This document shows positions 1,023 to 21,939 of a stretch of DNA of 21,939 nucleotides, in pieces. This stretch comes from a virus. A program made the position numbers and the translations under genes. The notes beneath the pieces are model-generated. The model worked only from the letters and a program-made list of their open reading frames with translations. It ran no database searches and was not told the origin of the DNA. How positions within the stretch are numbered: the stretch's first letter is position 1; each line of letters opens with the position of its first letter. The DNA lies in IMG/VR virus record IMGVR_UViG_3300049893_000760, positions 1-21,939 of that record. One strand, given 5' to 3'.

Positions 1023-1055
1023 CCGTACATTACCTCGATACGAATCGGGGGATTC

Positions 1056-1445
1056 ATGGACGCAGATTCCGTCACTCAGCTCTCTACTGCATTCATCGGT
1101 CTTGTCGGTACGATCATCGGAGGTGGCTTCGGGGCCGCCTTTATGAAGTACCGGCTTGGAGCCAAGCGCGTCGAAGAGGTTGAAGCGCCAACGGCTGCCG
1201 CAAAAGCGTTCGAGATAGCGATGAACGTTCAGTCACAGTTGAACGATTCTGTGAATGCGAACGTCAATGCGATGCAGAAGACAATCATCGTTCTCCAGGA
1301 GCAGGTTGCTCACTTGGAGAAGGAGCTTCGTGTCAGGGATGACAAGATTGCAGAGCTGATGAATGAGATCAAGCTGCACGAGAAGGATGCGACGATAGGC
1401 CGCCTTGAGTACGAGGCCGAGCATCGAAGCCCATCGGAAGAGTAG
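1056..1445 (+). CDS. single-helix membrane protein with coiled coil, holin-like
   Basis: 129 residues. One glycine-rich hydrophobic segment (about residues 8-30, LSTAFIGLVGTIIGGGFG) is followed directly by basic residues (KYRLGAKR), as at a membrane exit, and then by a long charged heptad region (about 72-110) likely to form a coiled coil. There is no enzymatic motif. The position directly after the lysin supports a lysis role: a holin, or a regulator or partner of one. One transmembrane segment is few for a holin but known in the group. TCGGGGGATTC before the ATG is the probable ribosome site. A GTACATTAC motif lies in the 33-base gap upstream. The membrane segment is seen; the holin function is inferred from context. 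Confidence 0.55.
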   Translation: MDADSVTQLSTAFIGLVGTIIGGGFGAAFMKYRLGAKRVEEVEAPTAAAKAFEIAMNVQSQLNDSVNANVNAMQKTIIVLQEQVAHLEKELRVRDDKIAELMNEIKLHEKDATIGRLEYEAEHRSPSEE

Positions 1446-3614: not shown

Positions 3615-3615
3615 T

Positions 3616-6000: not shown

Positions 6001-6042
6001 TTCCCGAACATTACCCCATGAACTCTTTCTGATCGAGGATCA

Positions 6043-8749: not shown

Positions 8750-9220
8750 ATGGCGAACGTCCCAGATCTGGCAGGTTTCAGGGCTGCTCAGGAAAGCCTT
8801 GTTGAGAACCTCGGCCTCGATGTCGCATTCAACTTCACCGACGTGAATGGGTATGCCTCTGGCGTCTACTTGGATCCAGAGCACGGAACGCCGCTTGACC
8901 CGACGCTATCGCCATCAGCTTCAGCTCCTGCTTCAGCCTCGGTCGTGGTTCGAGCCACCGTCATCAGGCGCATTCCGCAGCTCACCAGGAGCGGGCAGAA
9001 TGATGGCAATGCCACGGCCGGAGGTGTCATCCCTACCGGAAAAGCGTGGCTGAGAATACCTGCTGGGACATACGACGCTTCGATCCTGAATGCAACCACT
9101 GTGGACATCAATGGCGAAACATTCACCATTGACAGGTTCATAGAGGATGGGATCGGACAGGTTGATCGGTTGTATGTGGAGTGCGAGATGATCGGCGATT
9201 CGCTGACTCCGCAGCCGTAG
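8750..9220 (+). CDS. putative head closure (stopper) protein
   Basis: 156 residues. After a short helix (FRAAQESLVENLGLDVAFNF) comes a Ser/Ala/Pro-rich linker (PTLSPSASAPASAS, 52-65) and then a beta-rich domain with RIPQLTRSG, KAWLRIPAGTYDAS and NATTVDINGETFTIDRFIED, ending VDRLYVECEMIG. This beta pattern ('...I.G..y.I......g....~~~v..') resembles the small beta-barrel stopper proteins that close the head after packaging. The ribosome site is weak (GATATAG before ATG). The TAG stop is embedded in a GTAGATTAC motif. The call depends mainly on order after the adaptor; a minor structural role is the alternative. Confidence 0.45.
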   Translation: MANVPDLAGFRAAQESLVENLGLDVAFNFTDVNGYASGVYLDPEHGTPLDPTLSPSASAPASASVVVRATVIRRIPQLTRSGQNDGNATAGGVIPTGKAWLRIPAGTYDASILNATTVDINGETFTIDRFIEDGIGQVDRLYVECEMIGDSLTPQP

Positions 9221-9225
9221 ATTAC
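9217..9225 (+). repeat. GTAGATTAC motif, copy 1
   Basis: Exact copy; its TAG is the stop codon of the head-closure-like gene. GTAGGA follows after three bases. It lies 40 bases ahead of the first fibre gene. Confidence 0.75.
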
Positions 9226-9256
9226 GGGGTAGGACATTCACGGCCCTGGATGACAC

Positions 9257-9925
9257 ATGCCCGACCAGACACCTCCAATCAGAAACTTCGAGCGACTTGT
9301 TCAGTACGCTCGACCTGGAAAGATTCTGATCGCTGGATACTACGGGGACAGCGGAAATGTCTATCCAGAGTGGTCTGAGGGCACTGCCGGGTCTGGCCAG
9401 ATCGTAGCCTTCAATGGTTCGACGTTCGCTGCAATGGACGTCGAGGAGGCAATCGTCGCCGGTGGTGGCAGCCTTGCTTCTGGTGGCTTGACATTCGCCG
9501 ATACTGATCCGCGCTATGTGAATGCTTCTGGCGATGTGATGGAGGGACACCTCTTCCAGCCGAATGCGCCGACCGCATCTGGTCATCTGGTGAACAAGGC
9601 ATACGCCGATAGTCTGATCTCTGGCGGCGAGGCGTTCTCGACGGAAACTTCGGATGTTGTACTCACCGATGTGAATGCCGTCGTGTTCGTGGATTCGACT
9701 GGCGGCCCGGTGGACGTTGAGCTTCCGAATCCGCACACGCCTGGCAGGCGAATCACGGTGAAAGACTTTGGCACTGATGGTGATGGGTTCACGCAGACGA
9801 ATGCTGTGACTGTCTCTCCTGGTGGTGCCGCAAAGATTGAGGGTGTCGCGTCTCCGCTGGCACTCACTCAAAACAAAGAGTCAGCCACGTTCGTGGGTGA
9901 TGGAACAAACTGGGGAAGGGTCTAG
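9257..9925 (+). CDS. fibre-like structural protein 1
   Basis: 222 residues. The N-terminal 65 residues (containing RNFERLVQYARPGKILIAG) may anchor the protein. Next is a fibre motif, LTFADTDPRYVNASGDVMEG (78-97), the 'YVNxSGDxMxG' unit common in phage tail fibres, and then HLVNKAYADSL, the 'VNKxYVD' unit that often follows it. The C-terminal 95 residues form a beta-type domain ending VGDGTNWGRV. The next gene ends in a related domain (VSDGTNWHRF). ATG 9257 is preceded in frame by a stop, so the start is fixed although the ribosome site is weak. The protein is probably an oligomeric appendage subunit. Which part of the virion carries it is not known; see the finding on cassette position. Confidence 0.7.
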   Translation: MPDQTPPIRNFERLVQYARPGKILIAGYYGDSGNVYPEWSEGTAGSGQIVAFNGSTFAAMDVEEAIVAGGGSLASGGLTFADTDPRYVNASGDVMEGHLFQPNAPTASGHLVNKAYADSLISGGEAFSTETSDVVLTDVNAVVFVDSTGGPVDVELPNPHTPGRRITVKDFGTDGDGFTQTNAVTVSPGGAAKIEGVASPLALTQNKESATFVGDGTNWGRV

Positions 9926-9927
9926 GG

Positions 9928-11142
9928 ATGTCATACATTCCAGTAATCGACAGCACGCGGCTTGCCGCAGATTCAGTAAATAGCTCGAAGGTTGCTGATG
10001 GCACTCTGGTGAATGCCGACATCAGCGCATCAGCAGCCATTGCGTTCTCCAAGTTGGAGGCTGTGCCGTGGCACGCTGGCAATGATGGCGCTGGCTCTGG
10101 CCTCGACGCCGACCTGCTTGATGCTCAGAGCAGCGCGTACTACCTGTCTCGCACCAACCACACTGGTACGCAGACAGCTTCGACGATCTCTGACTTCGAC
10201 ACGCAGGTTCAGTCGAACAGCATTGATGAACTTCAGGATGCTGCTGCTGACGTTGGCATGGGCGGGTTCAAGATCACCAGCCTTGGCACTCCGACCGCCG
10301 CTGGCGATGCGGTGAACAAGAGCTACGTCGATGCGATTGCGACTGGTCTTGTTGATTACAAGGCTTCGGTTCGCGCTGTAGCGACTTCAACGATCACCCT
10401 GTCTGGTCTTCAGACTATCGACGGTGTATCGCTTGCTGATGGTGATCGCGTCCTGTACGCGCCGGGAGCTGCTTCGGCTGCTGGCCTCTACACCGCTTCT
10501 GCCGGAGCGTGGACACGAACGCCTGACGCCGATACCTCTTCAGAGGTCACTGCTGGCATGTACCTCGCCGTCGAGGAGGGCACGAACTACGCCGACAGTG
10601 TCTGGCTGCTCGCCACTGACAATCCGATCACTCTCGACACTACTGCTCTGACGTTCATTGAGCTGCCGTCGATTCAGGATCTGATCGCCGGTGCTGGTCT
10701 TACGAAGACTGGCAACACGGTTGATGTTGGTGCTGGCACTGGCATCACTGTCAATGCGAACGATGTCGCTATCGACACTGCTGTTGTTCCGCGCAAGGGT
10801 GTTGCGAACACCTTCACGGCAGAGCAGACGATGCAGGCTCGCCTGGTTACTCAGGCTGGTGTTCGCGTCTTCATTCAGACGTTCGCCGCAGATCACACAT
10901 TCGATCCAACTGCGGATCACTTCATGGTGATGGACTCGGCTGCTGCTGTTCGCACGGTGACGCTTCCTTCGAGCCATGCTGCTGGCGATCATTTGTACGT
11001 CAAGCGGAATGGTGCGAACTCCGTTGTTATCGCAACGAACGACTCTGACACGATTGACGGTTCTGCTTCTGACGTGACGCTCACGCAGGATCAGGAAACC
11101 GCTCTGATCGTCAGCGACGGAACCAACTGGCATCGCTTCTAA
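9928..11142 (+). CDS. fibre-like structural protein 2
   Basis: 404 residues, rich in Ala, Ser, Thr, Asp and Val. In order: an N-terminal segment with SSKVADGTLVNADISASAAI; the fibre motif LDADLLDAQSSAYYLSRTNH followed by TGTQTASTI (about 59-87), common in tail fibre proteins; then PTAAGDAVNKSYVDAIATG; a beta domain with VSLADGDRVLYAPGAASAAG that looks like a repeated phage-fibre module; AGLTKTGNTVDVGAGTGITV; and a C-terminal domain ending VSDGTNWHRF. The last domain is a paralogue of the end of the preceding protein. TAGGG sits directly before the ATG, two bases after the previous stop, so the two are co-translated. A fibre shaft and tip subunit is the natural reading; receptor binding is inferred. 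Confidence 0.75.
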   Translation: MSYIPVIDSTRLAADSVNSSKVADGTLVNADISASAAIAFSKLEAVPWHAGNDGAGSGLDADLLDAQSSAYYLSRTNHTGTQTASTISDFDTQVQSNSIDELQDAAADVGMGGFKITSLGTPTAAGDAVNKSYVDAIATGLVDYKASVRAVATSTITLSGLQTIDGVSLADGDRVLYAPGAASAAGLYTASAGAWTRTPDADTSSEVTAGMYLAVEEGTNYADSVWLLATDNPITLDTTALTFIELPSIQDLIAGAGLTKTGNTVDVGAGTGITVNANDVAIDTAVVPRKGVANTFTAEQTMQARLVTQAGVRVFIQTFAADHTFDPTADHFMVMDSAAAVRTVTLPSSHAAGDHLYVKRNGANSVVIATNDSDTIDGSASDVTLTQDQETALIVSDGTNWHRF

Positions 11143-11162
11143 TCCGACTGGATGACTGAGGA

Positions 11163-12176
11163 ATGAGCTACACGCCAAAAAGGGACATTGATCTCACCGG
11201 TGATCCGACTGCGCCGACACCGGCGTCCGGTGATGCCGACACTTCTCTGGCAACGACTGCATTCGTCGCCGGTGAGATCACTGCTGCCATTTCGGCGTCT
11301 GGTGGATTGACGTTCACGGATACTGATCCAAGGTATGTGAACGCTTCCGGCGACACAATGACCGGGTCGCTCATTGTCAATGCTGATGTTGAGATTGTTG
11401 GAAGGTACAAGGCCGCTGGAGGCGTGCCTGGACTGTGGATGGAGGACACCTACGCCTCCGCTGCTTCGGGTACATACATCGTCCAAGACGCAGATCTGTT
11501 CCAGATTCAATCAAGGGCATCCGGGTTTGGCGCGTTCATTCAGACGGACTTCTCGATTGATCGTGGAGCAAACGTAGCCAGGTTCGATCAGTCTCTGTCA
11601 GGTGTTCGTTGGGCCGCGTCAGCGGTTACAAACGCAGACCTCACCAACAAAGGGTATGTGGACAACGCTGTAGGTGTTGCTTCGGCAAACGCAGGTTCGT
11701 TGTTCGTGAAGTCTTCTGGCGATTCGATGTCAGGGGCGCTGACTGCTTCTGCGTTCTATGCAAGCGGAACGATACTGTCGTCTGGGGCGATCAACTCTCG
11801 GGCTGGTGCAACGTTTGCGTCTGGGACTGTAACTGTTCAGGGTTCGTCAAGCCCTGTTCAGATCACACTCCTTACTACGGGCGCTCTTGACAATACGATT
11901 CTGTTCAACAGGAACAGCAACACGAACAGATTCACTATTGGGAACCAGACAAACGACTTCAGGCTTCATAGCCCATCCATTCCGGTTACGTTCTTTACTG
12001 CGTCTGGTAATGGTGGGTTGTACCTGGCTCCAACAGGTGTTGGTTCTGCGTTCTACCAGGGGCCGGTTACAGCGTCTGCGAACATTGCAAACAAGGGGTA
12101 CGTCGATAGCGCCATCGCCGCATCCGCTGGAACTGGCGGCGCATCAAGGGCCTTCGCTTTCGTGATGGGCACATAG
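11163..12176 (+). CDS. fibre-like structural protein 3
   Basis: 337 residues. Motifs in order: an N-terminal PTAPTPASGDADTSLATTAF; LTFTDTDPRYVNASGDTMTG (50-69), nearly identical to the unit in fibre protein 1; LTNKGYVDNAVG; a second SSGDSMSGAL; then beta-repeat sequence with IGNQTNDFRLHSP, and near the end another IANKGYVDSAIA. Each pairing of 'SGDxMxG' with 'NKxYVD' probably marks one fibre repeat. The C-terminus (SRAFAFVMGT) lacks the DGTNW domain of the two preceding proteins. GAGGA directly abuts the ATG. It is probably an appendage shaft protein. Its resemblance to protein 1 in the 5' third, but not the rest, suggests duplication or module exchange. Confidence 0.75.
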   Translation: MSYTPKRDIDLTGDPTAPTPASGDADTSLATTAFVAGEITAAISASGGLTFTDTDPRYVNASGDTMTGSLIVNADVEIVGRYKAAGGVPGLWMEDTYASAASGTYIVQDADLFQIQSRASGFGAFIQTDFSIDRGANVARFDQSLSGVRWAASAVTNADLTNKGYVDNAVGVASANAGSLFVKSSGDSMSGALTASAFYASGTILSSGAINSRAGATFASGTVTVQGSSSPVQITLLTTGALDNTILFNRNSNTNRFTIGNQTNDFRLHSPSIPVTFFTASGNGGLYLAPTGVGSAFYQGPVTASANIANKGYVDSAIAASAGTGGASRAFAFVMGT

Positions 12177-12185
12177 GAGATAACG

Positions 12186-12509
12186 ATGGCTGACGCATTC
12201 AAGCTGCTCAATCCAGGCAACACTCTTCTGAACACCTCACCGGTGGCGGTCTATACGTCTCCGGCTGCTGGCTCTGGAGTAGTGAAGGACATCGAGATCT
12301 TCAACGCCTCTGCTGCTTCGGCAAGCGTCACGCTCTATGTTGCTGGCTCTGCATCGCAGAACACTCTTGCTGTCGCTCCACTTGATGTCAGTCCTGCTGG
12401 TGCCACGAGGCAGGGCAACATTATGCTCACTGGCGGCCAGGCTCTGTATGCGAAGTCTTCTGTGGCTTCTGCTGCAATCATCCACTGCTTCGGGATGGAG
12501 ATCACCTGA
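12186..12509 (+). CDS. small beta-type structural protein
   Basis: 107 residues, Ala/Ser/Val-rich and predicted mostly strand: SPVAVYTSPAAGSGVVKDI, FNASAASASVTLYVAGSA, IMLTGGQALYAKS and AAIIHCFGMEI. This is the pattern of a small single-domain beta sandwich often found in phage structural regions, sometimes as a decoration or fibre-associated protein. No catalytic motif. AGGAGA lies well placed before the ATG, and the stop overlaps the next start (TGATG). The genes on both sides are fibre-like, so a fibre-associated, oligomeric role is likely but inferred. Confidence 0.6.
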   Translation: MADAFKLLNPGNTLLNTSPVAVYTSPAAGSGVVKDIEIFNASAASASVTLYVAGSASQNTLAVAPLDVSPAGATRQGNIMLTGGQALYAKSSVASAAIIHCFGMEIT

Positions 12510-13531
12510 TGGGATGGGACATTCGACTGAATGACGGATCTGTTGCATCTTCGTATGATGTTCCAGATGGTCACATAACTACGGCAAAGATCGCCGACTC
12601 TGCTGTTACCGATCCAAAGCTGAACAACAACTACGTCAGCGCATCTGGCGACACGATCATCGGCACGCTTGAAGTGAACAGCGGAGCTGCCAATACTGGG
12701 TGGAATCGTCTTGCTGTAGGAGTCGATCCTTACTACGGGGCATTCGAGGGGCAGTCTGATACTCAGCCAACAGCTCGTATTGGCAGTGTGAGCGGCTCCG
12801 GTCAGATTGCTCTCGGCCCAGGAGCATCAACGTCTCCGACGTGGTCAATCTCATTCACCTCGATTGCTTCCGCCGCTTCTGCTGCCAGTGGCAATGTGGC
12901 TACTCTTTCGGCGAACTCTCACATCAGGTCGCAGACTGACCCTGTGAACAACAATGATCTGGCTCGCAAGAGTTATGTCGATAACATGGTTTCGCCCGCG
13001 ATTGTCAATGACCTCCCATCATCTCCAGCCGATGGCGATGTTGTTGCATACGACACTGGTTCTGGGGCGGTGTGGATGTTCAAGTATGACCAATCCGCTT
13101 CGGCTGCATACCCGTGGAAGTTTCTTGGGGGAGCGCCAATCGGCGGCTATGTCAATACGGCAGAGACGACTTCAACAGGGTCGTATGGAGATCTTGCGAC
13201 TGTCGGGCCATCCGCTGTTTTCCCCTTGACTGGTGATTACAAGATGGAGTGGGGTTCTACTCAGCGATACTCTGCTGGTATTACCAACAACAGGAATATG
13301 TACCACGCTGTTGGCGTTGCGTCAGCATCGGCAGGTGACAGCAACTCTGCGAGAAGCGCGCATCCGAATCTTGTGAACATGCTCATGTCTGTTCACTTCG
13401 GGATAGATAGGCCGTCCATTCCGGCCGGAGCCGCCGCCGACTCACAGTACCGTGGAGCTGCCGGTGAGACGGCAGAGTTCCAGGATAGGTATTTGAGAAT
13501 CATTCCAGTCGCAGTGAAGAGAGGTGCCTGA
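12509..13531 (+). CDS. fibre-like structural protein 4
   Basis: 340 residues. It begins MGWDIRLNDGSVASSYDV with a following HITTAKIADSAVTDPKLNNN, the 'ItTaKIaDsaVTxxKL' unit typical of phage fibres, then YVSASGDTIIGTLEVNSG. After a beta region comes NNNDLARKSYVDNMVSP (the 'KSYVD' unit) and VNDLPSSPADGDVVAYDTGS, a module often found before a C-terminal head domain. The last 130 residues (STGSYGDLATVGPSAVFPLT onward) look like a compact jelly-roll-type tip that could bind a receptor. The N-terminal MGWD segment is shared with fibre protein 5, two genes on. The start overlaps the preceding stop by one base. Confidence 0.7.
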   Translation: MGWDIRLNDGSVASSYDVPDGHITTAKIADSAVTDPKLNNNYVSASGDTIIGTLEVNSGAANTGWNRLAVGVDPYYGAFEGQSDTQPTARIGSVSGSGQIALGPGASTSPTWSISFTSIASAASAASGNVATLSANSHIRSQTDPVNNNDLARKSYVDNMVSPAIVNDLPSSPADGDVVAYDTGSGAVWMFKYDQSASAAYPWKFLGGAPIGGYVNTAETTSTGSYGDLATVGPSAVFPLTGDYKMEWGSTQRYSAGITNNRNMYHAVGVASASAGDSNSARSAHPNLVNMLMSVHFGIDRPSIPAGAAADSQYRGAAGETAEFQDRYLRIIPVAVKRGA

Positions 13532-13532
13532 C

Positions 13533-13676
13533 ATGCCTGTGACGAACTGTGAAGTTTGCAGCGCCGACATAACCCAAACGTCTGTTGAGAAGTGCTCGGT
13601 GTGCGGCAAGGAGTTGTGCCCTGATTGTCACGCTGGCGAGGGTTACTGCGCTGCCGATCATCCTGGGGGAGAATGA
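13533..13676 (+). CDS. 47-residue cysteine-rich (zinc-binding) protein
   Basis: A short gene I found by translating the gap between two fibre genes. It reads MPVTNCEVCSADI, then EKCSVCGKELCPDCHAGEGY and CAADHPGGE. Seven cysteines and two histidines are arranged as C6-x2-C9, C21-x2-C24, C29-x2-C32, H33, C39 and H43, a cross-brace-like array as in B-box or RING-type zinc folds. GAGG precedes the ATG by about nine bases. The start is one base after the previous stop, and its own TGA overlaps the next ATG (TGATG), so it fits the operon exactly. The function is unknown. Confidence 0.7.
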   Translation: MPVTNCEVCSADITQTSVEKCSVCGKELCPDCHAGEGYCAADHPGGE

Positions 13677-14296
13677 TGGGCTGGGACTTACGATCTCAAA
13701 CCGGGGCGAAAACAACTGCTCCTGGTAATAGTTCTGTAAACACACAGCATCTTGTGAATGCGGCGGTCACGTCGGCAAAAATAGGCAATGATGCGATCAT
13801 CCCATCTCTCCTTGACGCACCAGAGTGGATGCAGATTGATGTCACCAGCGGAATATCTCTCACCGAGGACACTGAATCTATTGTTACCGCCGCAGCAAAC
13901 GCTGCAAGCCTGAACGTCGCTGGCAGCTACGGAACGCTTCTTGGTTGGGATGACACCAACAAGAGGCCATACGCTATTGAGGCCGGAACCGTTCTTGTGG
14001 TGATCCAATCAGAGCTTGTTGTTGTTCACAGCGCAGCGTCTGATATTCAGACGATGAACATCCTGAAGAAGAACACATCAACTGTTGTTGAGCAGACTGA
14101 CACCTCGTATGTCGGCGGCGGAACCGGCACGACAAGGCAGATGAACTTGATGAGGATGCTGACGGTAAACGCAAACGATTATCTAAGGTGGGCAGTGAGA
14201 GCAAATCAGGCAACTGGTTTAGCCACAACAAGGACTTTGTCCAACGGATCGCAGTCTGCTTCGTCGATGCAGATCATGTATCTCGGAGCGCAGTAG
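13676..14296 (+). CDS. fibre-like structural protein 5
   Basis: 206 residues from ATG 13676; the frame is open back to 13625, but that part lies inside the cysteine-rich gene, and GGGGGAG precedes this ATG. It starts MGWDLRSQTGAKTTAPGNSS, like fibre protein 4, followed by NTQHLVNAAVTSAKIGNDAI, the same 'vTsaKIgNdaI' unit. The C-terminal 130 residues (LLGWDDTNKRPYAIEAGTVL onward) carry LMRMLTVNANDYLRWAVRAN and end SSMQIMYLGAQ, a strand pattern like the C1q/TNF-type jelly roll used as a fibre tip. It may therefore be a short receptor-binding or tip protein that shares the docking segment of protein 4. Tip identity is inferred from strand pattern only. Confidence 0.65.
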   Translation: MGWDLRSQTGAKTTAPGNSSVNTQHLVNAAVTSAKIGNDAIIPSLLDAPEWMQIDVTSGISLTEDTESIVTAAANAASLNVAGSYGTLLGWDDTNKRPYAIEAGTVLVVIQSELVVVHSAASDIQTMNILKKNTSTVVEQTDTSYVGGGTGTTRQMNLMRMLTVNANDYLRWAVRANQATGLATTRTLSNGSQSASSMQIMYLGAQ

Positions 14297-14304
14297 TAGA
14301 TTAC
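14296..14304 (+). repeat. GTAGATTAC motif, copy 2
   Basis: Exact copy; its first base is the last base of the TAG stop of fibre protein 5. It ends eight bases before the ATG of the protease-scaffold gene, which has no Shine-Dalgarno sequence of its own. Confidence 0.75.
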
Positions 14305-14312
14305 ACAGAACC

Positions 14313-15542
14313 ATGAAGTCCTTCTCTCAACAGATCAACGGCAAGCTGTACCTGAACTCTGAGCTTCGGGTGTTCCAGCCAACCACCGACGAGATCTCAT
14401 CGTTCCAGTTCGCGCAGTCGGCGATGCAGTCTGCTCCTAACGAGCAAATCGTTTGGCTTCAAGGAGAGTACGTTGCTGGCGACACTCCCAATCGGAACGG
14501 CCAGCTCTGGACATCAGATGAGGTTTCGATCAAGAGCGTCACTGCCAGGCTGATGCCCGTAACTGTGATGCACGACTTCAGGACTGCTGTTGGCGTGATT
14601 GCCGATACGAAACTGGTCGAAGAGGAGACGTCTGACGATACTCCTGGTCGGGTGAAGCTCACTACGGTTCTTGCTATCTGGGCGCATCGCTTTCCTGACA
14701 TTGCTCAGGAGATTGCTCACAACGCTGAGATGGGGACGTTGATGCAGTCGCAGGAATGTGACGCTCCGTCATACGAATGTTCTTCATGTGGACAGGTGTT
14801 TGTAAAGCCCGTTGAGGAGTCTCAACACTGCGATCACCTGAAGACTGGAGAATCCTCCCGTACATTACGGGATGTCACCTTCACGGGGACGGGCCTGATC
14901 TTCGGATCGCGCGGGGCCGAGGGAGCGAATCCCAACGCCAAGCTCGATACAGTGATGGCAGAGGTCGCCCGTTGGTCAGATGTCAAGAATGGCATCGAAC
15001 AGCGAAAGCAGGAGACTGCAAACGTGGATACCATTGAAATCAAGCGCGCAGAGTACGACGAGCTGAAGGCACGGCCTTCCCGTGACGACTTCGACGCCAT
15101 CAAGGCCAAGCTGGACGAAGCCGAAGAGTCGCGTGATGCGGCTGTCAAGGCCCAGGAAGAGGCCGAGGTAGCACGCAAGGCTGCGGAAGACGCAAAGGTT
15201 GCCGCCGACGACGAGCTTGCCACGCTGAAGGGCGAGGTTGAAGCCGACGAGATGGCGAAGGAGCGCATGGACGCGGTGGACGACGAGTTGTCTGCTGCCC
15301 TCCCCGATTCGATCAAGGAGCGCCTGGTCAAGCAGGCTCGCACCATGAGCGATGACGAGTGGAGCGAGCGCATCACCGAGCTGTCGGAGCTGGTGAAGGT
15401 GGAGGCCAAGCCCAACGAGGGTGGCCAGACCTTCTCTGCCGACGAGATCTCGAAGTTCAACGGGCAGGGCAAGAAGGGTTCCACTTCGGTGGATCCGACC
15501 CAGATCGGCCGCGCCCTCTACAAGAACGCGGTCAAGGCGTGA
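14313..15542 (+). CDS. capsid maturation protease-scaffold fusion
   Basis: 409 residues in two parts. The N-terminal part (about 1-215) has VWLQGEYVAGDTPNRNGQLW (47-66) and LMPVTVMHDFRTAVGVIADT (80-99), a segment style I associate with phage prohead protease-like proteins; H87 and S146 (in GTLMQSQECD) are candidate catalytic residues. A zinc-knuckle pattern follows: YECSSCGQVF (C156, C159) and HCDHL (C173, H175). The second part (about 240-325) is a long Ala/Glu/Lys coiled coil, typical of scaffolding, and the C-terminus GRALYKNAVKA could be the capsid-binding end. The protein would organise capsid assembly and then be cut. The protease call is moderate; the scaffold call is stronger because the capsid genes come next. 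The ATG lacks a visible ribosome site. Confidence 0.65.
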   Translation: MKSFSQQINGKLYLNSELRVFQPTTDEISSFQFAQSAMQSAPNEQIVWLQGEYVAGDTPNRNGQLWTSDEVSIKSVTARLMPVTVMHDFRTAVGVIADTKLVEEETSDDTPGRVKLTTVLAIWAHRFPDIAQEIAHNAEMGTLMQSQECDAPSYECSSCGQVFVKPVEESQHCDHLKTGESSRTLRDVTFTGTGLIFGSRGAEGANPNAKLDTVMAEVARWSDVKNGIEQRKQETANVDTIEIKRAEYDELKARPSRDDFDAIKAKLDEAEESRDAAVKAQEEAEVARKAAEDAKVAADDELATLKGEVEADEMAKERMDAVDDELSAALPDSIKERLVKQARTMSDDEWSERITELSELVKVEAKPNEGGQTFSADEISKFNGQGKKGSTSVDPTQIGRALYKNAVKA

Positions 15543-15561
15543 CACAGGGAGCATCTGAACG
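15543..15561 (+). repeat. leader repeat copy 1 with ribosome site
   Basis: TGAC(A)CAGGGAG spans the scaffold stop and the ribosome site of the next gene. The same block with one change (G for A) occurs before the major capsid gene at 16162-16174. The strong GGGAG sits about nine bases before the ATG. Confidence 0.55.
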
Positions 15562-16164
15562 ATGACTGCATACACTCGTGGACATACTCTCACCTCGCTG
15601 GCAGACCTGGCTCGCGTGACCATGACCATCATGCCAGCACATGGGGATCTGATCTCCAACGTGCAGGCTTCCGGCGCTGTTCAGCCCGGCGAGGTCGTTG
15701 AGCGCGTAGCTGCTGCTGGTGCAGAGAGCTACCAAGCGGTCGGTACGCCGCAGGGTCGCGTGGCGAAGGTGGCTGGAACTCCAGCATCCGCTACTCGTGG
15801 CCTTCGTCGGCTGGGCGTTGCAATGCGCCCCATTGAGCATAGCTCGCTGTTCACCGATCCGAACTCGACGAACACGAACATTGCTCAGTCGAACACTGAG
15901 ATGGCAGATGGCGATTGGGTTCGCGTTGCTTATAGCGGCGTGATCCTCACCACGCTCACAGAGCAGACAGCTTCGGCATCTGTCGCATCAACATTCGCGC
16001 CAGGTACTCTCCTGACGTGGGACGGAGCTGCAACTCGCCCGACCGGCATTTCCGGTACTGGCGCGTGGGCACCGTGCGCCGCGAACGAGACGCCTCTGGC
16101 GGAAGTCGTATCTATCAAGCCGGTCGGCGACGGCGGCCTGCTGGAACTCAAGCTGCTCGCGTGA
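15562..16164 (+). CDS. putative capsid decoration protein
   Basis: 200 residues, located directly between scaffold and major capsid genes. It is beta-rich: an N-terminal helix or strand (YTRGHTLTSLADLARVTMTI), NVQASGAVQPGEVVERVAAA, a middle VRVAYSGVILTTLTEQTASA, and a C-terminal domain with GTLLTWDGAATRPTGISGTG and ETPLAEVVSIKPVGDGGLLE. The latter resembles the small beta domain of head decoration proteins that clamp the capsid surface, and decoration genes are frequently adjacent to the capsid gene. No diagnostic motif proves this, and a capsid-stabilising accessory or head fibre is possible. Codon use is C/G-ending and like the capsid gene, as expected for a protein made in large amounts. 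Confidence 0.5.
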   Translation: MTAYTRGHTLTSLADLARVTMTIMPAHGDLISNVQASGAVQPGEVVERVAAAGAESYQAVGTPQGRVAKVAGTPASATRGLRRLGVAMRPIEHSSLFTDPNSTNTNIAQSNTEMADGDWVRVAYSGVILTTLTEQTASASVASTFAPGTLLTWDGAATRPTGISGTGAWAPCAANETPLAEVVSIKPVGDGGLLELKLLA

Positions 16165-16183
16165 CGCAGGGAGACGAACAACG
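16162..16183 (+). repeat. leader repeat copy 2 with ribosome site
   Basis: TGAC(G)CAGGGAG, matching the leader before the decoration-like gene in 12 of 13 positions starting at the stop codon, followed by an A-rich spacer (ACGAACAACG) and the capsid ATG. Confidence 0.55.
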
Positions 16184-17140
16184 ATGACTAACGCACTCCA
16201 TACCATCAAGCGCGTTCTGGACGCGCCGGAGGATCAGCGTACCCTGCTCATGGAGCAGTCGGACGCGGAGCTGTCGGCGTTCTTCTCCAAGCCGCAGAAC
16301 CACGGGATCCTGAACGAGCTGGCTTACAGCATCGTCGGGATGGCCTGGACTGACGCGATGGCAGAAGACATCACCAGCAAGGTGATCGAGGTCAAGACCG
16401 TCGGCCTGAACGACCGCGACTACATCGAAGAGGATCTTCGGGGTATGCGTGCCTATTGGCAGGGCAAGGGCGGCGACATCATGTCGTACACCCTGCGCCA
16501 CTCGCGTGAAGAGATGCCGCGTGACGAGATGGTCGCTGCGCTGGACATCCATGACGACGATGTGGCCAACAGCTTCTGGGGCGCACTGAACGATCTGTCT
16601 TCGCAGTATCGGGAGAAGCTGACCCAGCTTCCTCTTCTGCGGCTGATCGAGCTGCTTCAGGCTGCACTGCCTGTTGGTTCGACCGTCGATGGCGAGTCGG
16701 TGTCTGCAACCTTCGCGGCTGCAACTCTCACTGACGACAACGTGGATTCGGTTCTTACCACGATCCGCAAGTTTGCCAAGGGGCCGATCTCGATCCTCGG
16801 TTCGAGCTGGGCGATGCACTACCTGGCGAATGTCGGCCTCACCTTCGGTGACAACGTCGCACAGCAGGTCTTCAACACTGGCCAGGTCGGTCAGTACAAG
16901 GGCGCTGCCTGTGTGCAGGTTGAGAACTTCGAGGACTTTGACGGCAATCGCGTCCTCCCGGACAACGAGCTTTGGTTCGTTGCTCAGGACGCTGGTCGTC
17001 TCACCTACTACGGCAACAGCCCGAAGGTGGCTGTCATTCGACGCCCGAGCTTCTACCAGCGGTGGGAGACGGCACGGGACGCCGGTATGCTTCTCTACGG
17101 AGTTCAGCATGGTCGCCTCGGCCGAATCGTGCTGACCTAG
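16184..17140 (+). CDS. major capsid protein
   Basis: 318 residues, HK97-fold candidate. Position (after protease/scaffold, before a terminator hairpin and tail genes), size and codon use agree. Sequence features: an N-terminal helical region with EQRTL-like charged helices (RTLLMEQSDAELSAFF), an E-loop-like stretch around KTVGLNDRDYIEEDLRGMRA, a long spine-helix region NSFWGALNDLSSQYREKL, and a C-terminal domain with GPISILGSSWAMHYLANVG, FGDNVAQQVFNTGQVGQYKG, and later NELWFVAQDAGRLTYYGNSP, the 'ggs...~~l.....GtvGTydG' type P-domain and A-domain pattern of capsid proteins. It forms the icosahedral head. The ATG has GGGAG at the best spacing in the window. I see no separate delta domain; scaffold is supplied by the upstream gene. 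Confidence 0.8.
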   Translation: MTNALHTIKRVLDAPEDQRTLLMEQSDAELSAFFSKPQNHGILNELAYSIVGMAWTDAMAEDITSKVIEVKTVGLNDRDYIEEDLRGMRAYWQGKGGDIMSYTLRHSREEMPRDEMVAALDIHDDDVANSFWGALNDLSSQYREKLTQLPLLRLIELLQAALPVGSTVDGESVSATFAAATLTDDNVDSVLTTIRKFAKGPISILGSSWAMHYLANVGLTFGDNVAQQVFNTGQVGQYKGAACVQVENFEDFDGNRVLPDNELWFVAQDAGRLTYYGNSPKVAVIRRPSFYQRWETARDAGMLLYGVQHGRLGRIVLT

Positions 17141-17166
17141 AGATTCCTCGGGGGCAAGGGGATGAC

Positions 17167-17198
17167 GGGGGCTGGGCCACATCGGCCTGGCCCCCTTG
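17167..17198 (+). terminator. strong hairpin after the capsid gene
   Basis: GGGGGCTGGGCC (17167-17178), loop ACATC, GGCCTGGCCCCC (17184-17195): twelve pairs with two G-U, then TTGT. The stem is very stable but the T tract is short, so it may attenuate rather than fully stop transcription, or stabilise the capsid mRNA 3' end. Confidence 0.65.
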
Positions 17199-17213
17199 TC
17201 GTAGGAGGGTGTG

Positions 17214-17690
17214 ATGCTGTCGCGGGTTGATGAACTGACACAGTCTTTGCAGGACTACATCAGGTCGTTCCTTGACACGAACGGATATTCGGGGAAGTAC
17301 GTCTTTGTTGATGACTATCCGAGTGATCGTGTGAATCCGTTGGGCAAGACGGTGATCGTTCTCTCCCATGATGAGAGCGGCCCTGCGGAGGACGGAGAGC
17401 TGGGTGGCCCTCTTGCGTTCGAGAGAATCACATACAACTGTGATGTTCTTGGTGCGTCTCATAGGTGGGGGCAGAACATTGCGTCTTTGGTGAAGCAGAA
17501 GCTGGAGGATGGCGAGGCGATCCCGTTGAACGACTACTCGTCGCCAACTCCCACTGAGGTTGATCGCATTCCGTATATTGACGGTGCGATTCATACGAGG
17601 CTTCGCTTCCCCAATCCCTTTCCTTGGCAGCAGCACTGGAACGTTGTGACGTTCGCGGTGAGTCTCGAATACAACAGGAGTGCGCTCTGA
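17214..17690 (+). CDS. putative tail terminator protein
   Basis: 158 residues. ATG 17214 is preferred to the GTG three bases earlier because AGGAGG ends six bases before it. The fold pattern is a helix (DELTQSLQDYIRSFLDT), strands (GKYVFVDDYP, TVIVLSHDESG), FERITYNCDVLGASHRWG, a helix NIASLVKQKLED and a terminal strand region (NVVTFAVSLEYNRS). A short alpha-beta protein that begins with an amphipathic helix and ends with 'W..V.tf.V.le' is what tail terminators (lambda U-like) look like. These cap the tail tube before it joins the head. Its location before the major tail protein fits. The assignment is by pattern and order, so moderate. Confidence 0.5.
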   Translation: MLSRVDELTQSLQDYIRSFLDTNGYSGKYVFVDDYPSDRVNPLGKTVIVLSHDESGPAEDGELGGPLAFERITYNCDVLGASHRWGQNIASLVKQKLEDGEAIPLNDYSSPTPTEVDRIPYIDGAIHTRLRFPNPFPWQQHWNVVTFAVSLEYNRSAL

Positions 17691-17926
17691 TGGATCGCAA
17701 AGAGTATCTGTACCAGCGCCGCAATCGTTGTGTTGGCCGCCTACTTGGTGAGCTTGAGGGGATTGTTCCTGAAGAGCTGATGGGCCAGGTGCGTCGCGCT
17801 GTGAAGACCAGGGTGAGCGAGTACCACACTGATGTTCTTGATGTCATCGACGACAACAATGGGGCTGTGTTCAATGCTCTGGCCATGAAGGTGAGGGATC
17901 GGGTTGGCAGTTCGAGTTCGCATTGA
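17690..17926 (+). CDS. small helical protein
   Basis: 78 residues from ATG 17690, which shares one base with the previous TGA; AGGAG lies about nine bases upstream. The frame is open further 5' but overlaps the previous gene. It is a charged helical protein (RRNRCVGRLLGELEGIVPEE, LMGQVRRAVKTRVSEYHTDV) with a Ser-rich end (GSSSSH). I do not recognise it. Placement between two neck/tail-completion candidates suggests a virion assembly part. The end overlaps the next gene by 23 bases. Confidence 0.55.
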   Translation: MDRKEYLYQRRNRCVGRLLGELEGIVPEELMGQVRRAVKTRVSEYHTDVLDVIDDNNGAVFNALAMKVRDRVGSSSSH

Positions 17927-18476
17927 GGCTGACAGGGCGAGGTGGAATCGGCAGGTTGATGCTCGCTTCCGCACGTTCCAACGTCAGATGGATGTCAGTG
18001 CCAGGCTGGTTGCCGGTGCGCTCGAACGCGAGGTCGATGCTCTTGTGGCTTCCAGGCTGACCAGGGATGAGAATCCTCGTCGTCAGCGTCGTCGTGGTTT
18101 GGGTGATGCGATCAAGGAATCCATCCTTCCAATCGCGGAGGGGCGGAATCAGTACGGCGTTGGCATTCGGATCACTGACCAGGCAACTCTGTCGAGGATC
18201 GCTCTGTACTGGCACGCCATTGAAGTTGGTTCGGATCACATCGTTGGCATTCGTGTTGTTGGCTTTGGTGTGCGTCGTCGTGGACGGATGACTGTGTCGA
18301 GACTTACCCCTCCTGGGCAGGCAACTCGGCAGCCTGACGCATTGGCGTCAAAGACTCGTGGTGTGACGGTGAAGCGCCCGATCACTGGGCATAGATACCT
18401 TGAGACGATCTCGACTCGTGCTGCCGCTCGTTTCAGTGCCCGTGTTGGCGTTGATTTGCAGCGGGCATTCTCGTAG
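17904..18476 (+). CDS. putative tail completion/neck protein (HK97 gp10-like)
   Basis: 190 residues, starting at TTG 17904 with GTGAGGG seven to ten bases upstream; no ATG or GTG start fits better. The N-terminus is Arg-rich helical (ADRARWNRQVDARFRTFQRQ). Then come LGDAIKESILPIAEGRNQYG, ALYWHAIEVGSDHIVGIRVV and, at the end, KRPITGHRYLETISTRAAAR. The pattern 'Y..~iE.Gsd..v......P...G..yl......' with an overall basic character resembles the HK97 gp10-type neck family, which joins head and tail. The C-terminal helix (ARFSARVGVDLQRAFS) is also usual. Not certain: a minor tail protein is the alternative. Confidence 0.5.
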   Translation: MAVRVRIEADRARWNRQVDARFRTFQRQMDVSARLVAGALEREVDALVASRLTRDENPRRQRRRGLGDAIKESILPIAEGRNQYGVGIRITDQATLSRIALYWHAIEVGSDHIVGIRVVGFGVRRRGRMTVSRLTPPGQATRQPDALASKTRGVTVKRPITGHRYLETISTRAAARFSARVGVDLQRAFS

Positions 18477-18485
18477 TCCCAGGTC

Positions 18486-18494
18486 GTAGATTAC
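18486..18494 (+). repeat. GTAGATTAC motif, copy 3
   Basis: Exact copy in the 48-base gap before the major tail protein gene; a GTAGGAGG sequence with the tail gene's ribosome site follows 15 bases after it. Confidence 0.75.
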
Positions 18495-18524
18495 TTGTAG
18501 CGCAGCGCGTAGGAGGAAACCCTG

Positions 18525-19778
18525 ATGGCCATTCGCGGCGGGCAGATCTTGCATCTTGGTGGCTCGGCCACCGTCATCGACCGACTCCAGTCGGTTGGAG
18601 CAGACGTGAACATCGGATCGGATACGATCCGTGAGGTAGGCAACTACCTGAACGTAGACAAGGTCAAGCAGGATCCAGAGGTTACGTTCAGCATGGAGAG
18701 CTTCGATGTCTCGACTGAGGCAGAGGCTCTTCTCTCCAATCGTCTCGACGATGCGAACGCTGACGCCGATGGAACCGAGTACCTGTTCTCAGAGATGGGT
18801 GCTCTGAACATCATCTCTCCTTGGAAGGATGAGGCTGCTGGTTCTGCTGGAACCATCGACGGAGGCGTGATCCTCCCTGGCTACTACTGCTCGCGCGCTT
18901 CATACCGATTTGGTGTGGACGACAACGCTGGCGTAACTTTCGAGCTTGCTGGTTCCGACCAGTACCTCGCCCGCTTCGTCCCGCAGAACGAGCGATTCAC
19001 TGGCAACGGTGCGTCTGCTTCGTTCACCACCACGGCTTCCGCCGTTCGTCACCGCGTCGGCGGATACGACTCTGGCGAAATGAAGTACGTCCTTGGCGTT
19101 GTCCTGAACGGCAACACTCAGGTCGAGGGTTCAGACTTCACCGTCACGCCTTCTGCTGGTGGTGCCGCAGAGGTGATGACCGTCACCTTCGCTACTACTC
19201 CGGCGACGAATGCCAAGATCGAGGTAGCGTACTTCGCTTCTGGCGTAACTGCTTCGTTCCCGCAGACGATTCACCCTGATGCGGTGACGAAGCCTGCTGC
19301 TGTTCGCGGTCGTGACATCAAGGCATACGTCCACCTCCCGGCTTCTGGATACGAGGCTTCTGGCCGCGTTCGCCTTCCTGGCATCCAGTCAGTCACGGTC
19401 GATGCCCAGAAGCAGACCACTCTCGAACGAGAGATGGGAACCCTTCTGCCTATTGGTCGCACCGTCGAATCAACGGACGTCACTGGCGACATGGGTGTTC
19501 ACCCTGCTGGTCAGACGGCGTTCTTCAAGCTGATGCGTCAGATCACTGGCGTCGATGCAGTCGAAGTTGTTGGCATTCTCAACGACTTCCCAATCGGCCT
19601 GGAGATCGAGATCCTCAATCCGAAGGATCGCTCGCAGACCCTGAAGACGCTGTTCATTGAGGACGCGAAGTTCCAGGTTCCTGGTACTCCGGCTCGGGCT
19701 GGCGCGGTGGTGGACTTCTCCATCAACTGGGAGTCTGCCGAGGGTGAGCTGAAGGTCTACAAGGGTGCGAAGCCCTGA
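18525..19778 (+). CDS. major tail protein (tail tube)
   Basis: 417 residues. It polymerises into the tail tube. Support: place between neck genes and the frameshifted chaperones, strong AGGAGG ribosome site, and a beta-rich sequence (EVTFSMESFDVSTEAEAL early, IQSVTVDAQKQTTLEREMGT and GIEIEIL-like GLEIEILNPKDRSQTLKTLF late, ending INWESAEGELKVYKGAKP), which is the tube-protein pattern of an N-terminal and a C-terminal half-barrel. Residues about 157-239 look like an extra domain: FTGNGASASFTTTA, VLNGNTQVEGSDFTV, and VTFATTPATNAKIEVAYFA, an Ig- or carbohydrate-binding-like beta unit found as a decoration in many phage virion proteins. That makes it longer than an ordinary tube protein. Only the tube role is well supported. 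Confidence 0.75.
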   Translation: MAIRGGQILHLGGSATVIDRLQSVGADVNIGSDTIREVGNYLNVDKVKQDPEVTFSMESFDVSTEAEALLSNRLDDANADADGTEYLFSEMGALNIISPWKDEAAGSAGTIDGGVILPGYYCSRASYRFGVDDNAGVTFELAGSDQYLARFVPQNERFTGNGASASFTTTASAVRHRVGGYDSGEMKYVLGVVLNGNTQVEGSDFTVTPSAGGAAEVMTVTFATTPATNAKIEVAYFASGVTASFPQTIHPDAVTKPAAVRGRDIKAYVHLPASGYEASGRVRLPGIQSVTVDAQKQTTLEREMGTLLPIGRTVESTDVTGDMGVHPAGQTAFFKLMRQITGVDAVEVVGILNDFPIGLEIEILNPKDRSQTLKTLFIEDAKFQVPGTPARAGAVVDFSINWESAEGELKVYKGAKP

Positions 19779-19809
19779 TAGTTCGCCAGCATGACTGGCA
19801 ATAGTTGAT

Positions 19810-19846
19810 CCAGGGGGCGGGACTGCACAGCGGTTCCCCCCCTTGG
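19810..19846 (+). terminator. GC-rich hairpin between tail tube and chaperone genes
   Basis: CCAGGGGG and CCCCTTGG form the outer stem, one C-C mismatch, then GGGAC and GTTCC, with loop TGCACAGCG: thirteen pairs, two of them G-U. A weaker hairpin GCCAG-CATGA-CTGGC lies at 19785-19799, soon after the stop codon. There is no T tract (TGTGTCT follows), so termination or mRNA-end protection is inferred. It would lower chaperone expression relative to tube protein. Confidence 0.55.
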
Positions 19847-19876
19847 TGTGTCTGGTATGGAAGGTATGGTGTCGGC
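19846..19876 (+). promoter_or_regulatory. candidate promoter before the chaperone gene
   Basis: GTGTGTCTGGTATGGAAGG then TATGGTGTCGGC sit directly before the ATG. TATGGT (19865-19870) fits a -10 box; TTGGTG 16 bases upstream is a poor -35 match. The same blocks occur in the divergent region near 461-478. If TATGGT is used, the message would start at or next to the ATG (leaderless). Confidence 0.4.
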
Positions 19877-20746
19877 ATGGATGAGAACGTCACAGAAGAA
19901 GTAGAAACTCCTGTCAATGTGGAGCCTGAGTGGAAAGAGTTCGACTCTGATCCGACTCCACACCTCTCCTTCTCGAAGGAGGTGAAGGCCACTGTTGATG
20001 GCGAGGAGTTCTCCGCGTTCATCAGATTGCCAAACCCCTGGCAGCATCGGAAGGTTCAAGACCATGCTGCTGCGGCTCGCGCCAGGATGGTGATGCAGCT
20101 CCGAGACAAGGAGTCTGATGCTTACGCCATTGTGCAGGAGCAGATTGGCAGCATTGACGATCTTGAGGACGAGAAGGTGATCGACTACCTTGTTGGTCGC
20201 CACGCGCCGGAGGCGATCTTCCGAGCGCAGATCGAGCTTGAGACGATGGAAGACGTCGATGCGAACGGCAAGGCGTTCAAGCCCTGGGGCAACATGCAGG
20301 AGCACCAGGAGCGGTATGCCATCCTCCTCCAGCGAGAAGAGACTGAGAGCGACGAATACAAGAAGCTCGAAGGTCACATCATCTCCTACGCCGAAGCTCT
20401 CCAGGAGCGGGCACAGCACCACCTCGAACCGAAGGAGCAGGTGTACGCTGCCCTGGATCGTGATGGGCTGATGGAGAGGGTTCGTCGCGCGCTCTGCCAT
20501 GCGAAGGCGACGGACGAGTTCATCAATGTTTACAACCAGTGGCAGATCTACTACGGGACACGCCAGTCGGGCAATCACAACAAGCTGTACTTCTCATCGT
20601 TCATGGAGTTGCTTGATGCGAACACTGGCCTGGTCGAACTGCTGACTGAGGAGTTCGCCCAGCTTGACGCCATGAAGGCGGGTGAGTTGGGAAAATCTCC
20701 ACGAGCGACCTCTTTGTTGGCCTCGCTCGAACAGTTCGAGATTTAG
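19877..20746 (+). CDS. tail assembly chaperone (G-type, zero-frame product)
   Basis: 289 residues from ATG 19877 (MDENVTEEVETPVNVE); the frame is open further 5' but over a hairpin region that is clearly non-coding. The protein is acidic, with a beta start (LSFSKEVKATVDGEEFSAFI) and a long helical remainder (VQDHAAAARARMVMQLRDKE, YKKLEGHIISYAEALQERAQ, LMERVRRALCHAKATDEFIN). Located between the tail tube and tape measure genes, it corresponds to lambda gpG, which keeps the tape measure soluble and recruits tube subunits. It carries the slippery GGGAAAA 17 codons before its stop. The ribosome site is weak: GGAAGG lies 12 bases upstream. Confidence 0.85.
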   Translation: MDENVTEEVETPVNVEPEWKEFDSDPTPHLSFSKEVKATVDGEEFSAFIRLPNPWQHRKVQDHAAAARARMVMQLRDKESDAYAIVQEQIGSIDDLEDEKVIDYLVGRHAPEAIFRAQIELETMEDVDANGKAFKPWGNMQEHQERYAILLQREETESDEYKKLEGHIISYAEALQERAQHHLEPKEQVYAALDRDGLMERVRRALCHAKATDEFINVYNQWQIYYGTRQSGNHNKLYFSSFMELLDANTGLVELLTEEFAQLDAMKAGELGKSPRATSLLASLEQFEI

Positions 20747-21093
20747 GTGATTGGCGAGTGGCGTGGCCCGAGGGCGTCACTCATGTGTACGACCTGCCGT
20801 GGAACTTTGTAGCCGCTTGGCAGCAGGCCATCACCATTCTCAACTGGCAGGAGAACCTGCCGGAAGAAGACATGCCACCCAAGTCTATCTGGAGGGATGG
20901 AGATCTCCTGGAGGCGCACTTCAAGAAGATCAAGGCGAAGTGGCGCGGCAAGGATGAAGGCGAGTTCGATTCTCCGAGAGGGTCGTTCGATGATGCCATC
21001 GACGGCAAGTTCTCTGTGAACATTAGGAACCGACTTGGCGACTATGTTCGTGAGTCTCTGAACGATCCTTGGGATGACTTCTCGGACTTCTGA
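19877..21093 (+). CDS. tail assembly chaperone fusion (G-T, -1 frameshift product)
   Basis: Ribosomes that slip back one base at 20695 read 273 codons of the zero frame, then 132 residues of the -1 frame, giving 405 residues. The T part begins ISTSDLFVGLARTVRDLGDW and includes VYDLPWNFVAAWQQAITILN and MPPKSIWRDGDLLEAHFKKI, close to the 'PP...W.dg..l..wf' pattern of T domains of tail chaperones. The -1 frame has no stop between the slip site and 21093, and no ATG at its head (the first in-frame start codon, GTG 20758, has no ribosome site). The fusion is produced in small amount and binds tube protein through T and tape measure through G. Its end sits 97 bases before the tape measure start. 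Confidence 0.9.
20689..20729 (+). promoter_or_regulatory. programmed -1 frameshift signal
   Basis: Slippery heptamer GGGAAAA (20689-20695), positioned as G GGA AAA in the zero frame, so it fits X XXY YYZ exactly. Six bases later CGAGCGA (20702-20708) pairs perfectly with TCGCTCG (20723-20729), a seven-base stem at the standard spacer distance, with an optional inner CC-GG pair around TCTTTGTT. Confidence 0.9.
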
Positions 21094-21101
21094 CGGTGGT
21101 C

Positions 21102-21110
21102 GTAGATTAC
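21102..21110 (+). repeat. GTAGATTAC motif, copy 4
   Basis: Exact copy nine bases after the chaperone stop, followed after three bases by GTAGGA exactly as in copy 1. An inverted repeat, AAGCGC (21119-21124) and GCGCTT (21133-21138), lies downstream before the tape measure gene. Confidence 0.75.
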
Positions 21111-21189
21111 AAGGTAGGAAGCGCACACCCCGGCGCTTGCCCGTGTGGCTGGTCGTTTCTCATAGATCTGTCAGATTGAGGGAATGACT

Positions 21190-21939
21190 ATGCCCCAGGG
21201 CGCGAACTACTTCTTGAAGGTACAGGTTGATCCAACCTCGATTGCCCGTGCCCAGCAGCAGCTCCGATCCCTCGGGAACTTTGCTCAATCCAACGTAGTT
21301 CAGCAGCAGGTTCAGGTTCCACGAGCAGCCACTGGAGCGGTGGCACAGCAGCAGCGCCTCGCGTCTATCCAGGCTCGATCAGTTGCAGACAGCGTCCAGA
21401 GCCAGGCGTCATCCTTCCGCCGTCTTGAGAACGAGCTTTCTGGGGCAGTCCTTGCGAGTAATCGCACGGCAGGATCACAGCTCAATCTTGCTCGCGCCAC
21501 CGGCGAGGTTGGCATTGCCACCTCTCGAACCACCAGGCAGATCCTTCTCGGCCAGCGTTCGTTCCGGCAGATCGGAACCGAGGTTGCCCTCGTTGCCACA
21601 AAGCTGACGCTGTGGACGGCTGCTGCCGCAGGTATCACGGCAACCATCGGGATCTTCGCCAGTCTGGCAGAGCAGATCCTCGCCGTGAACGATGCGATGA
21701 TTGGTCTTCAGCGTGTCACGAACCAAACTTTCAATCGTGATGTTGCGGCTGCCGGGATTGCAGACAACATGCGCGACCTCAACGTCTCCGCTACTGATGC
21801 CGCTACCGCAGCGTTCGAGATGGGGAAGGCGTATGGGAATCTCCGCGAATCACTGGCTGCTTCCAGAACTGTCCTCCTGGCCAACAAGGTTGCTGAGATC
21901 GACCTTGCTCAAGCATCGCAGCAGCTCGTCCAGGTAACG
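21190..21939 (+). CDS. tape measure protein (partial, N-terminal part)
   Basis: The frame is open from 21184 to the right edge; 250 codons are visible from ATG 21190. I prefer that start (MPQGANYFLKVQVDPTSIAR) over ATG 21184 because GAGGG is about six bases before it, while it touches the other. The sequence is Gln/Ala-rich helix (RAQQQLRSLGNFAQ, VVQQQVQVPRAATG, then LASIQARSVADSVQSQASSF), followed by a hydrophobic stretch EVALVATKLTLWTAAAAGIT (about residues 131-150) and NDAMIGLQRVTNQTF. This opening (small beta strand, coiled Gln-rich helix, hydrophobic segment) is typical of siphophage tape measures, whose length fixes tail length. Position right after the chaperone pair confirms it. The gene is truncated by the window, so total length is unknown. 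Confidence 0.9.
   Translation, partial: MPQGANYFLKVQVDPTSIARAQQQLRSLGNFAQSNVVQQQVQVPRAATGAVAQQQRLASIQARSVADSVQSQASSFRRLENELSGAVLASNRTAGSQLNLARATGEVGIATSRTTRQILLGQRSFRQIGTEVALVATKLTLWTAAAAGITATIGIFASLAEQILAVNDAMIGLQRVTNQTFNRDVAAAGIADNMRDLNVSATDAATAAFEMGKAYGNLRESLAASRTVLLANKVAEIDLAQASQQLVQVT

Follow-up and report, generated by a model that had tools for sequence, protein, structure and literature searches.

The stretch of DNA analyzed here, hereafter the window, is an entire virus record of 21,939 nt (21.9 kb), taken as a fragment, whose late genes lie on the + strand (Table 1). Their names come from weak profile matches together with position, and the tail protein gene has no PHROG match. Two HNH-endonuclease-like reading frames (1915–2292 and 3168–3614) precede the terminase gene, the second resembling an HNH gene of L007 and L055. 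A repeated stretch, TDPRYVNASGD, is common to the fibre-like genes spanning 9257–13531, which appear to be tandem paralogues. The gaps after the capsid gene (17141–17210) and after the tail protein gene (19779–19876) lack the motif described below; by eye, both hold G+C-rich inverted repeats and are likely terminators.

A short element recurs at the gene boundaries of the window and once within a gene. All seven sites listed in a preliminary description of this DNA were found again on the + strand, i.e., the late-gene strand, where GTAGATTAC occurs four times, GTACATTAC twice, and GAACATTAC once. Under a first-order Markov model of the window, 0.012 copies of GTAGATTAC are expected on this strand, in agreement with the earlier estimate of well under one for this 9-mer, and the core GTANATTA is seen 6 times where 0.114 copies are expected. 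With one mismatch allowed, the motif count was matched by none of 100 shuffles of the window. The motif is present in five of the eight intergenic gaps that measure 30 nt or more, and in one gap of 16 nt. The larger frame GTAGATTACnnnGTAGGA, shared by the copies at 9217 and 21102, was rejected as a family signal: since it is unconserved in relatives and its 53 matches on viral contigs lack structural-gene relatives (their sole protein match to the window is the HNH gene of L055), this frame is, by these comparisons, chance or a Shine-Dalgarno-like stretch.

Table 1. Genes, predicted late promoter elements, and associated features of the window
Feature	Coordinates	Strand	Remarks
Late promoter element (predicted), GTACATTAC	1025..1033	+	Before holin-like gene; predicted transcript start ~1038
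Holin-like gene	1056..1445	+	Downstream of element; weak PHROG matches, function of these unknown
Late promoter element (predicted), variant GAACATTAC	6006..6014	+	Before portal gene; predicted transcript start ~6019
Portal gene	6043..7641	+	Downstream of element; phrog_2739, E 2.8e-6
Late promoter element (predicted), GTAGATTAC	9217..9225	+	Overlaps stop codon of gene 8750-9220; before first fibre-like gene (start 9257)
Late promoter element (predicted), GTAGATTAC	14296..14304	+	Before protease-scaffold gene; predicted transcript start ~14309, near-leaderless
Prohead protease with C-terminal scaffold domain	14313..15542	+	phrog_18299 head maturation protease, E 4.9e-6
Intragenic late promoter element (predicted), GTACATTAC	14860..14868	+	Within protease gene, codons CGT ACA TTA; predicted transcript start ~14873, upstream of nested scaffold start
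AGGAG, Shine-Dalgarno-like	15010..15014	+	Before nested scaffold start
Nested in-frame scaffold reading frame	15024..15542	+	GTG start, 172 aa, within protease-scaffold gene
Late promoter element (predicted), GTAGATTAC	18486..18494	+	Before major tail protein gene; leader has AGGAGG at 18511-18516
Tail protein gene	18525..19778	+	Downstream of element; conserved in relatives; name from position and preliminary description
Late promoter element (predicted), GTAGATTAC	21102..21110	+	Before tape-measure gene
Tape-measure gene, cut by window end	21184..21939	+	Downstream of element; has relatives; name from position and preliminary description

Conservation and anatomy of the element in related phages

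The capsid, portal, and tail proteins of the window match syntenic phage records at 30–80% protein identity, and the motif is kept before the portal and protease genes in relatives at 30–60% protein identity. Upstream of the portal gene, these relatives carry GTACATTAC (L008 and L007), GTACATTAT (L005), GTAGATTAG (L004), or GTAAATTAG (L006). Upstream of the protease gene, GTAGATTAC, GAACATTAT, GTACATTAG, and GTAGATTAA are found, and the element at this place (14296 in the window) is conserved in L005, L001 (as a variant), L003/L006, L007, and L062. Furthermore, L008 has GTACATTAC at the place homologous to the element at 1025. Because of these variants at homologous places, the conserved core is, on the alignments, GTANATTA, and the final C of the 9-mer singled out earlier is dispensable.

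The conservation that the preliminary description proposed to look for in relatives is borne out by a set of 32 nonredundant records of this capsid family, totaling 1.28 Mb (G030 was dropped as a copy of G017), in which GTANATTA occurs 144 times on the late-gene strand vs once on the opposite strand. Compared with all other 8-mers of the same shape present in 60 or more copies, it has the highest strand ratio and the highest observed/expected ratio, and among 1120 letter permutations scanned in the first eight records, the motif gave 44 forward and 0 reverse copies, the next best giving 21 and 9. The sites on the late strand are confined to a stretch of 13–43% of the genome in the twelve records of 60–88 kb, taken as circular. 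When each site was assigned to its nearest mapped gene, 21 were located upstream of the portal gene, 23 upstream of the protease gene, and 19 upstream of the tail protein gene (within 400 nt), 29 inside the protease gene, and 46 had no mapped neighbour. The sole copy against the late strand in the 1.28 Mb, on the minus strand of G027 at 25298, may be due to chance.

Scanning with the capsid profile added more virus records and one metagenome-assembled contig, binned as Actinomycetota, whose capsid relative is the sole host clue. In a collection of named phages, searches with the capsid, terminase, and tail proteins retrieved only GX15bay, and those with the protease and the sigma-like protein described below gave no match. 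GX15bay, a distant relative, has no copy of the motif and no sigma-like gene by profile search. Its gene annotated as an epimerase (MK557849.1, 33831–35048) is homologous to the tail protein gene of the window, and this annotation is therefore probably wrong.

The consensus of the aligned sites is TCGTANATTAGG, which contains the hexamer TANATT; position by position, the pooled alignment of the 144 sites reads T (94/144), C (141/144), G T A N A T T A, G (98), and G (112). The -35 region carries no information in this alignment, and in tests made record by record, p exceeded 0.05 in 11 of 13 records, G031 and G032 being borderline. No -35 hexamer was found 16–18 nt upstream of the -10 element, where host sigma-70/sigma-A promoters have theirs, and the AAC motif of ECF-type -35 elements is absent from the pooled logo, a weak A-rich stretch being seen only in G009 and G021. 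These are also the only two of the 13 records where the upstream stretch exceeds the null, as a longer GC-rich extension touching the core in G009 and as the A-rich stretch in G021. In G009 the conserved block is much longer, reaching upstream so that the element reads about CCGACGCGCGTCGTACATTAG.

The spacing between TANATT and a start codon peaks at 6–7 nt, a distance found at 38 of the 144 sites where about 3 are expected by chance. Of the 115 sites outside the protease gene, 54 have, 5–9 nt downstream, an ATG or GTG that opens a reading frame of 80 codons or more (47%, vs 5.5% of random places), and 26 of the other 61 have a leader carrying a Shine-Dalgarno-like stretch. Transcripts driven by a -10 hexamer begin about 5–9 nt downstream of it; because the start codon at the former sites sits where such a transcript begins, the corresponding mRNAs should be leaderless.

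A copy within the protease gene and a nested scaffold reading frame

The preliminary description rightly placed one copy inside the protease gene and considered that many copies inside genes, as dense as in the gaps, would speak against its reading of the motif. That criterion does not apply to this copy, which is no stray one: it is present in 29 of the 29 records that contain this part of the protease and, being the most conserved copy of all, it is not noise but a conserved site in its own right. The element is written in the codons CGT-AYA-TTA (CGT-ATA-TTA in 27 records and CGT-ACA-TTA in 2), the adjoining codons vary, and TTA makes up about 1% of the leucine codons (0.8–2.6% in the records counted). 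In all seven records examined, the coiled-coil-like scaffold part opens with a GTG or ATG codon 142–184 nt beyond the element, and this nested start is often preceded by a purine-rich Shine-Dalgarno-like stretch. We infer from this arrangement that the intragenic element is a promoter from which the nested in-frame scaffold would receive its own transcript, in addition to that of the full-length gene, so that more scaffold than protease would be made.

A sigma-70-like protein and the possible readers of the element

Pfam profiles for regions 2 and 4 of sigma-70 match one gene, encoding about 206–219 aa, in three large relatives, and adding a profile built from these three brought the count to 12 of the 12 relatives of at least 60 kb. 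The protein matches PHROG sigma families (E 2.7e-8) and, among PDB profiles, SigH (3.5e-9), the ECF factor CnrH (9.6e-8), and SigE chains. Its AlphaFold model shows two confident domains, which align with region 2 (1rp3, Z 8.9) and region 4 (1ku3, Z 7.3); the alignment was made domain by domain, Foldseek giving low global TM-scores owing to the disordered linker of the model. Both regions that characterize the sigma-70 family are found by sequence profiles and in the model, and the structural match, between helical domains at Z 7–9, is supporting rather than proving. Scans of other virus families gave sigma matches only in members of this capsid family. Neither the window nor its closest relatives L008, L005, and L001, all of which are fragments, yielded a sigma gene, and we infer that the phage from which the window derives would also carry one.

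At -2 before the core, six phages have T throughout their sites (G004 is of this type), four have G throughout (G031 among them), and two are mixed. This flank covaries with the sigma sequence (Mantel r 0.61, p 0.0008), also when capsid distance is taken into account (partial r 0.45, p 0.0012), although shared ancestry among these 12 related phages can inflate both values.

Ten of the 12 phage sigmas end in AA, mostly as LAA, VAA, or IAA, and that of G009 ends in PVA; the observation refers to the sigmas of G004, G007, G009, G010, G017, G019, G024, G025, G027, G029, and G032. By its resemblance to the degradation tails of the ssrA/ClpXP type, this ending may make the sigma short-lived. In G004 (43922–45610) and G007 (2560–4236), the gene immediately before that of the sigma encodes a helicase-like protein of about 560 aa, which looks SNF2-like by eye.

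Taken from sequence comparisons, the motif is very probably the on-switch for the late, particle-building genes of this soil phage family, and its reader is most likely a sigma factor carried by the phages themselves. We consider it highly probable that the elements are late promoters used by the host RNA polymerase together with a phage-encoded sigma resembling phiEco32 gp36. The core promoter would consist of the -10-type element alone, with its TANATT hexamer and no conserved -35, located in the gaps before the portal, protease, and other head, tail, and lysis genes, and it would be read by the host enzyme loaded with the small sigma-70-like factor, which is encoded outside the late module. 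For about half of the sites, transcription is predicted to start on or next to the start codon, which would give leaderless mRNAs; transcripts from the remaining sites would have a leader, in some cases with a Shine-Dalgarno site. The suggestion of a phage late promoter with a TANNNT -10 box, made in the preliminary description, gains from the strand ratio of 144 to 1, the restriction to the structural module, the modal start distance, and the conservation. Several observations pull the other way: the sigma has a region-4-like domain, usually the reader of a -35 element, yet no -35 is conserved; its Pfam matches (Sigma70_r2 and Sigma70_r4) are weak and lie under the curated cut-offs in most members (one lies over them, with its neighbours); the covariation is open to the effect of ancestry mentioned above; and the window and its three closest relatives, all fragments, gave no sigma match.

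Alternatively, the TANNNT box might be recognized by a host sigma factor of the sigma-A or ECF type, aided by a phage activator, in which case the phage sigma-like protein would do something else. TANNNT is the actinobacterial -10 consensus, which TANATT fits, and leaderless genes are common in Actinobacteria, the phylum suggested by the binned contig with a capsid relative. However, a sigma-A -10 is shorter and less strict than this element, which has C at -1 in all but three sites and lacks a -35, the base upstream of the element is phage specific and follows the phage sigma, and the sigma gene occurs in every record of at least 60 kb, all of which renders the use of a host sigma improbable. 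A signal acting in translation, such as a start-associated RNA sequence or an unusual ribosome-binding site, would account for the many copies 6–7 nt before a start codon and for the AGG that often follows them; it is very unlikely in view of the copies 20–90 nt from a start, some of which have a separate Shine-Dalgarno stretch, of the protease copy, which lies in no gap and far ahead of the nested start, and of the restriction of the motif to the late module.

An operator for a phage repressor or another DNA-binding protein, in the manner of mycobacteriophage stoperators or start-associated sequences, has even less to recommend it: the motif is directional, intergenic, short, and repeated, with outer GTA...TAC letters that are partly palindromic in some copies, but its distance to start codons is fixed, the rest of the genome is devoid of it, and the gene found to accompany it encodes a sigma-like protein. 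Finally, a single 9-mer seen four times in 22 kb could have been picked post hoc; chance or coding constraint is nevertheless refuted by the strand ratio in diverged relatives, the first rank among 8-mers of the same shape, and the rare codons kept in all 29 records, and its probability is negligible.

Beyond the identity of the promoters, we regard as fairly probable a family-wide late regulon in which a dedicated sigma and a -10-only element yield leaderless virion genes, a promoter in rare codons of the protease gene yields the scaffold transcript, and the sigma and the promoter flank diverge together.

Significance and comparison with known systems

Judged by the open papers and collections searched, three features of the predicted promoters are new: their sequence, their leaderless geometry, and the placement of one of them inside a gene. 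Among the open papers listed, no precedent came up for phage late genes without leaders or for scaffold promoters located within a gene, and no paper was retrieved on actinobacteriophage, sigma factor, and late promoter together. For a soil phage family that is uncultured and nearly without relatives in the named-phage collection searched, the analysis yields a transcription programme open to test. The 12 sigma-promoter pairs, whose specificity has apparently diverged, are of use for understanding how region 2 reads extended -10 DNA in the absence of a -35. The protease copy clearly exemplifies the conservation of a promoter-like site in coding sequence against codon bias, and it suggests how the scaffold-to-protease dosage may be set.

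Among known elements, the start-associated sequences and stoperators of mycobacteriophages have a consensus that differs from the motif described here. With bacterial ECF (group IV) sigmas, the phage proteins share a size of about 180–220 aa, the presence of regions 2 and 4 only, and profile matches to CnrH and SigE, whereas their putative promoters lack the conserved -35 AAC motif. In lambda C/Nu3, the scaffold is made from an internal in-frame start within the protease gene; the putative nested scaffold is alike, except that here its start is preceded by a promoter-like element embedded in the codons of the protease. The late promoters of T4 gp55 (TATAAATA) are also of the -10-only kind and are read by a small phage sigma, a likeness by description, but the T4 system requires the gp33 co-activator and the gp45 clamp.

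According to PMC8948821, gp47 of phage 7-11 is a sigma for late genes with promoters before structural genes, as proposed here, but these promoters are bipartite (GTAAtg-16-aCTA). The nearest described system is phiEco32 gp36, a phage-encoded sigma with middle/late promoters (PMC8948821, PMC4331800). According to PMC8948821, these promoters have a single highly conserved element, tAATGTAtA, without a -35, before structural genes, transcripts start 6–8 bp downstream of it, and gp36 is reported to lack region 4; term searches of that paper gave neither leaderless spacing nor an intragenic promoter for phiEco32. The element sequence, the modeled region-4-like domain, and the phage family set the present system apart. 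Both systems nonetheless combine a phage sigma or sigma-like protein with one -10-like element lacking a -35, upstream of structural genes on one strand; the sigma gene lies in the same genome in all the large relatives of the window, itself a 22-kb fragment, and the start-codon spacing is consistent with a transcript start 6–8 bp downstream, a likeness that would be functional and does not imply homology.
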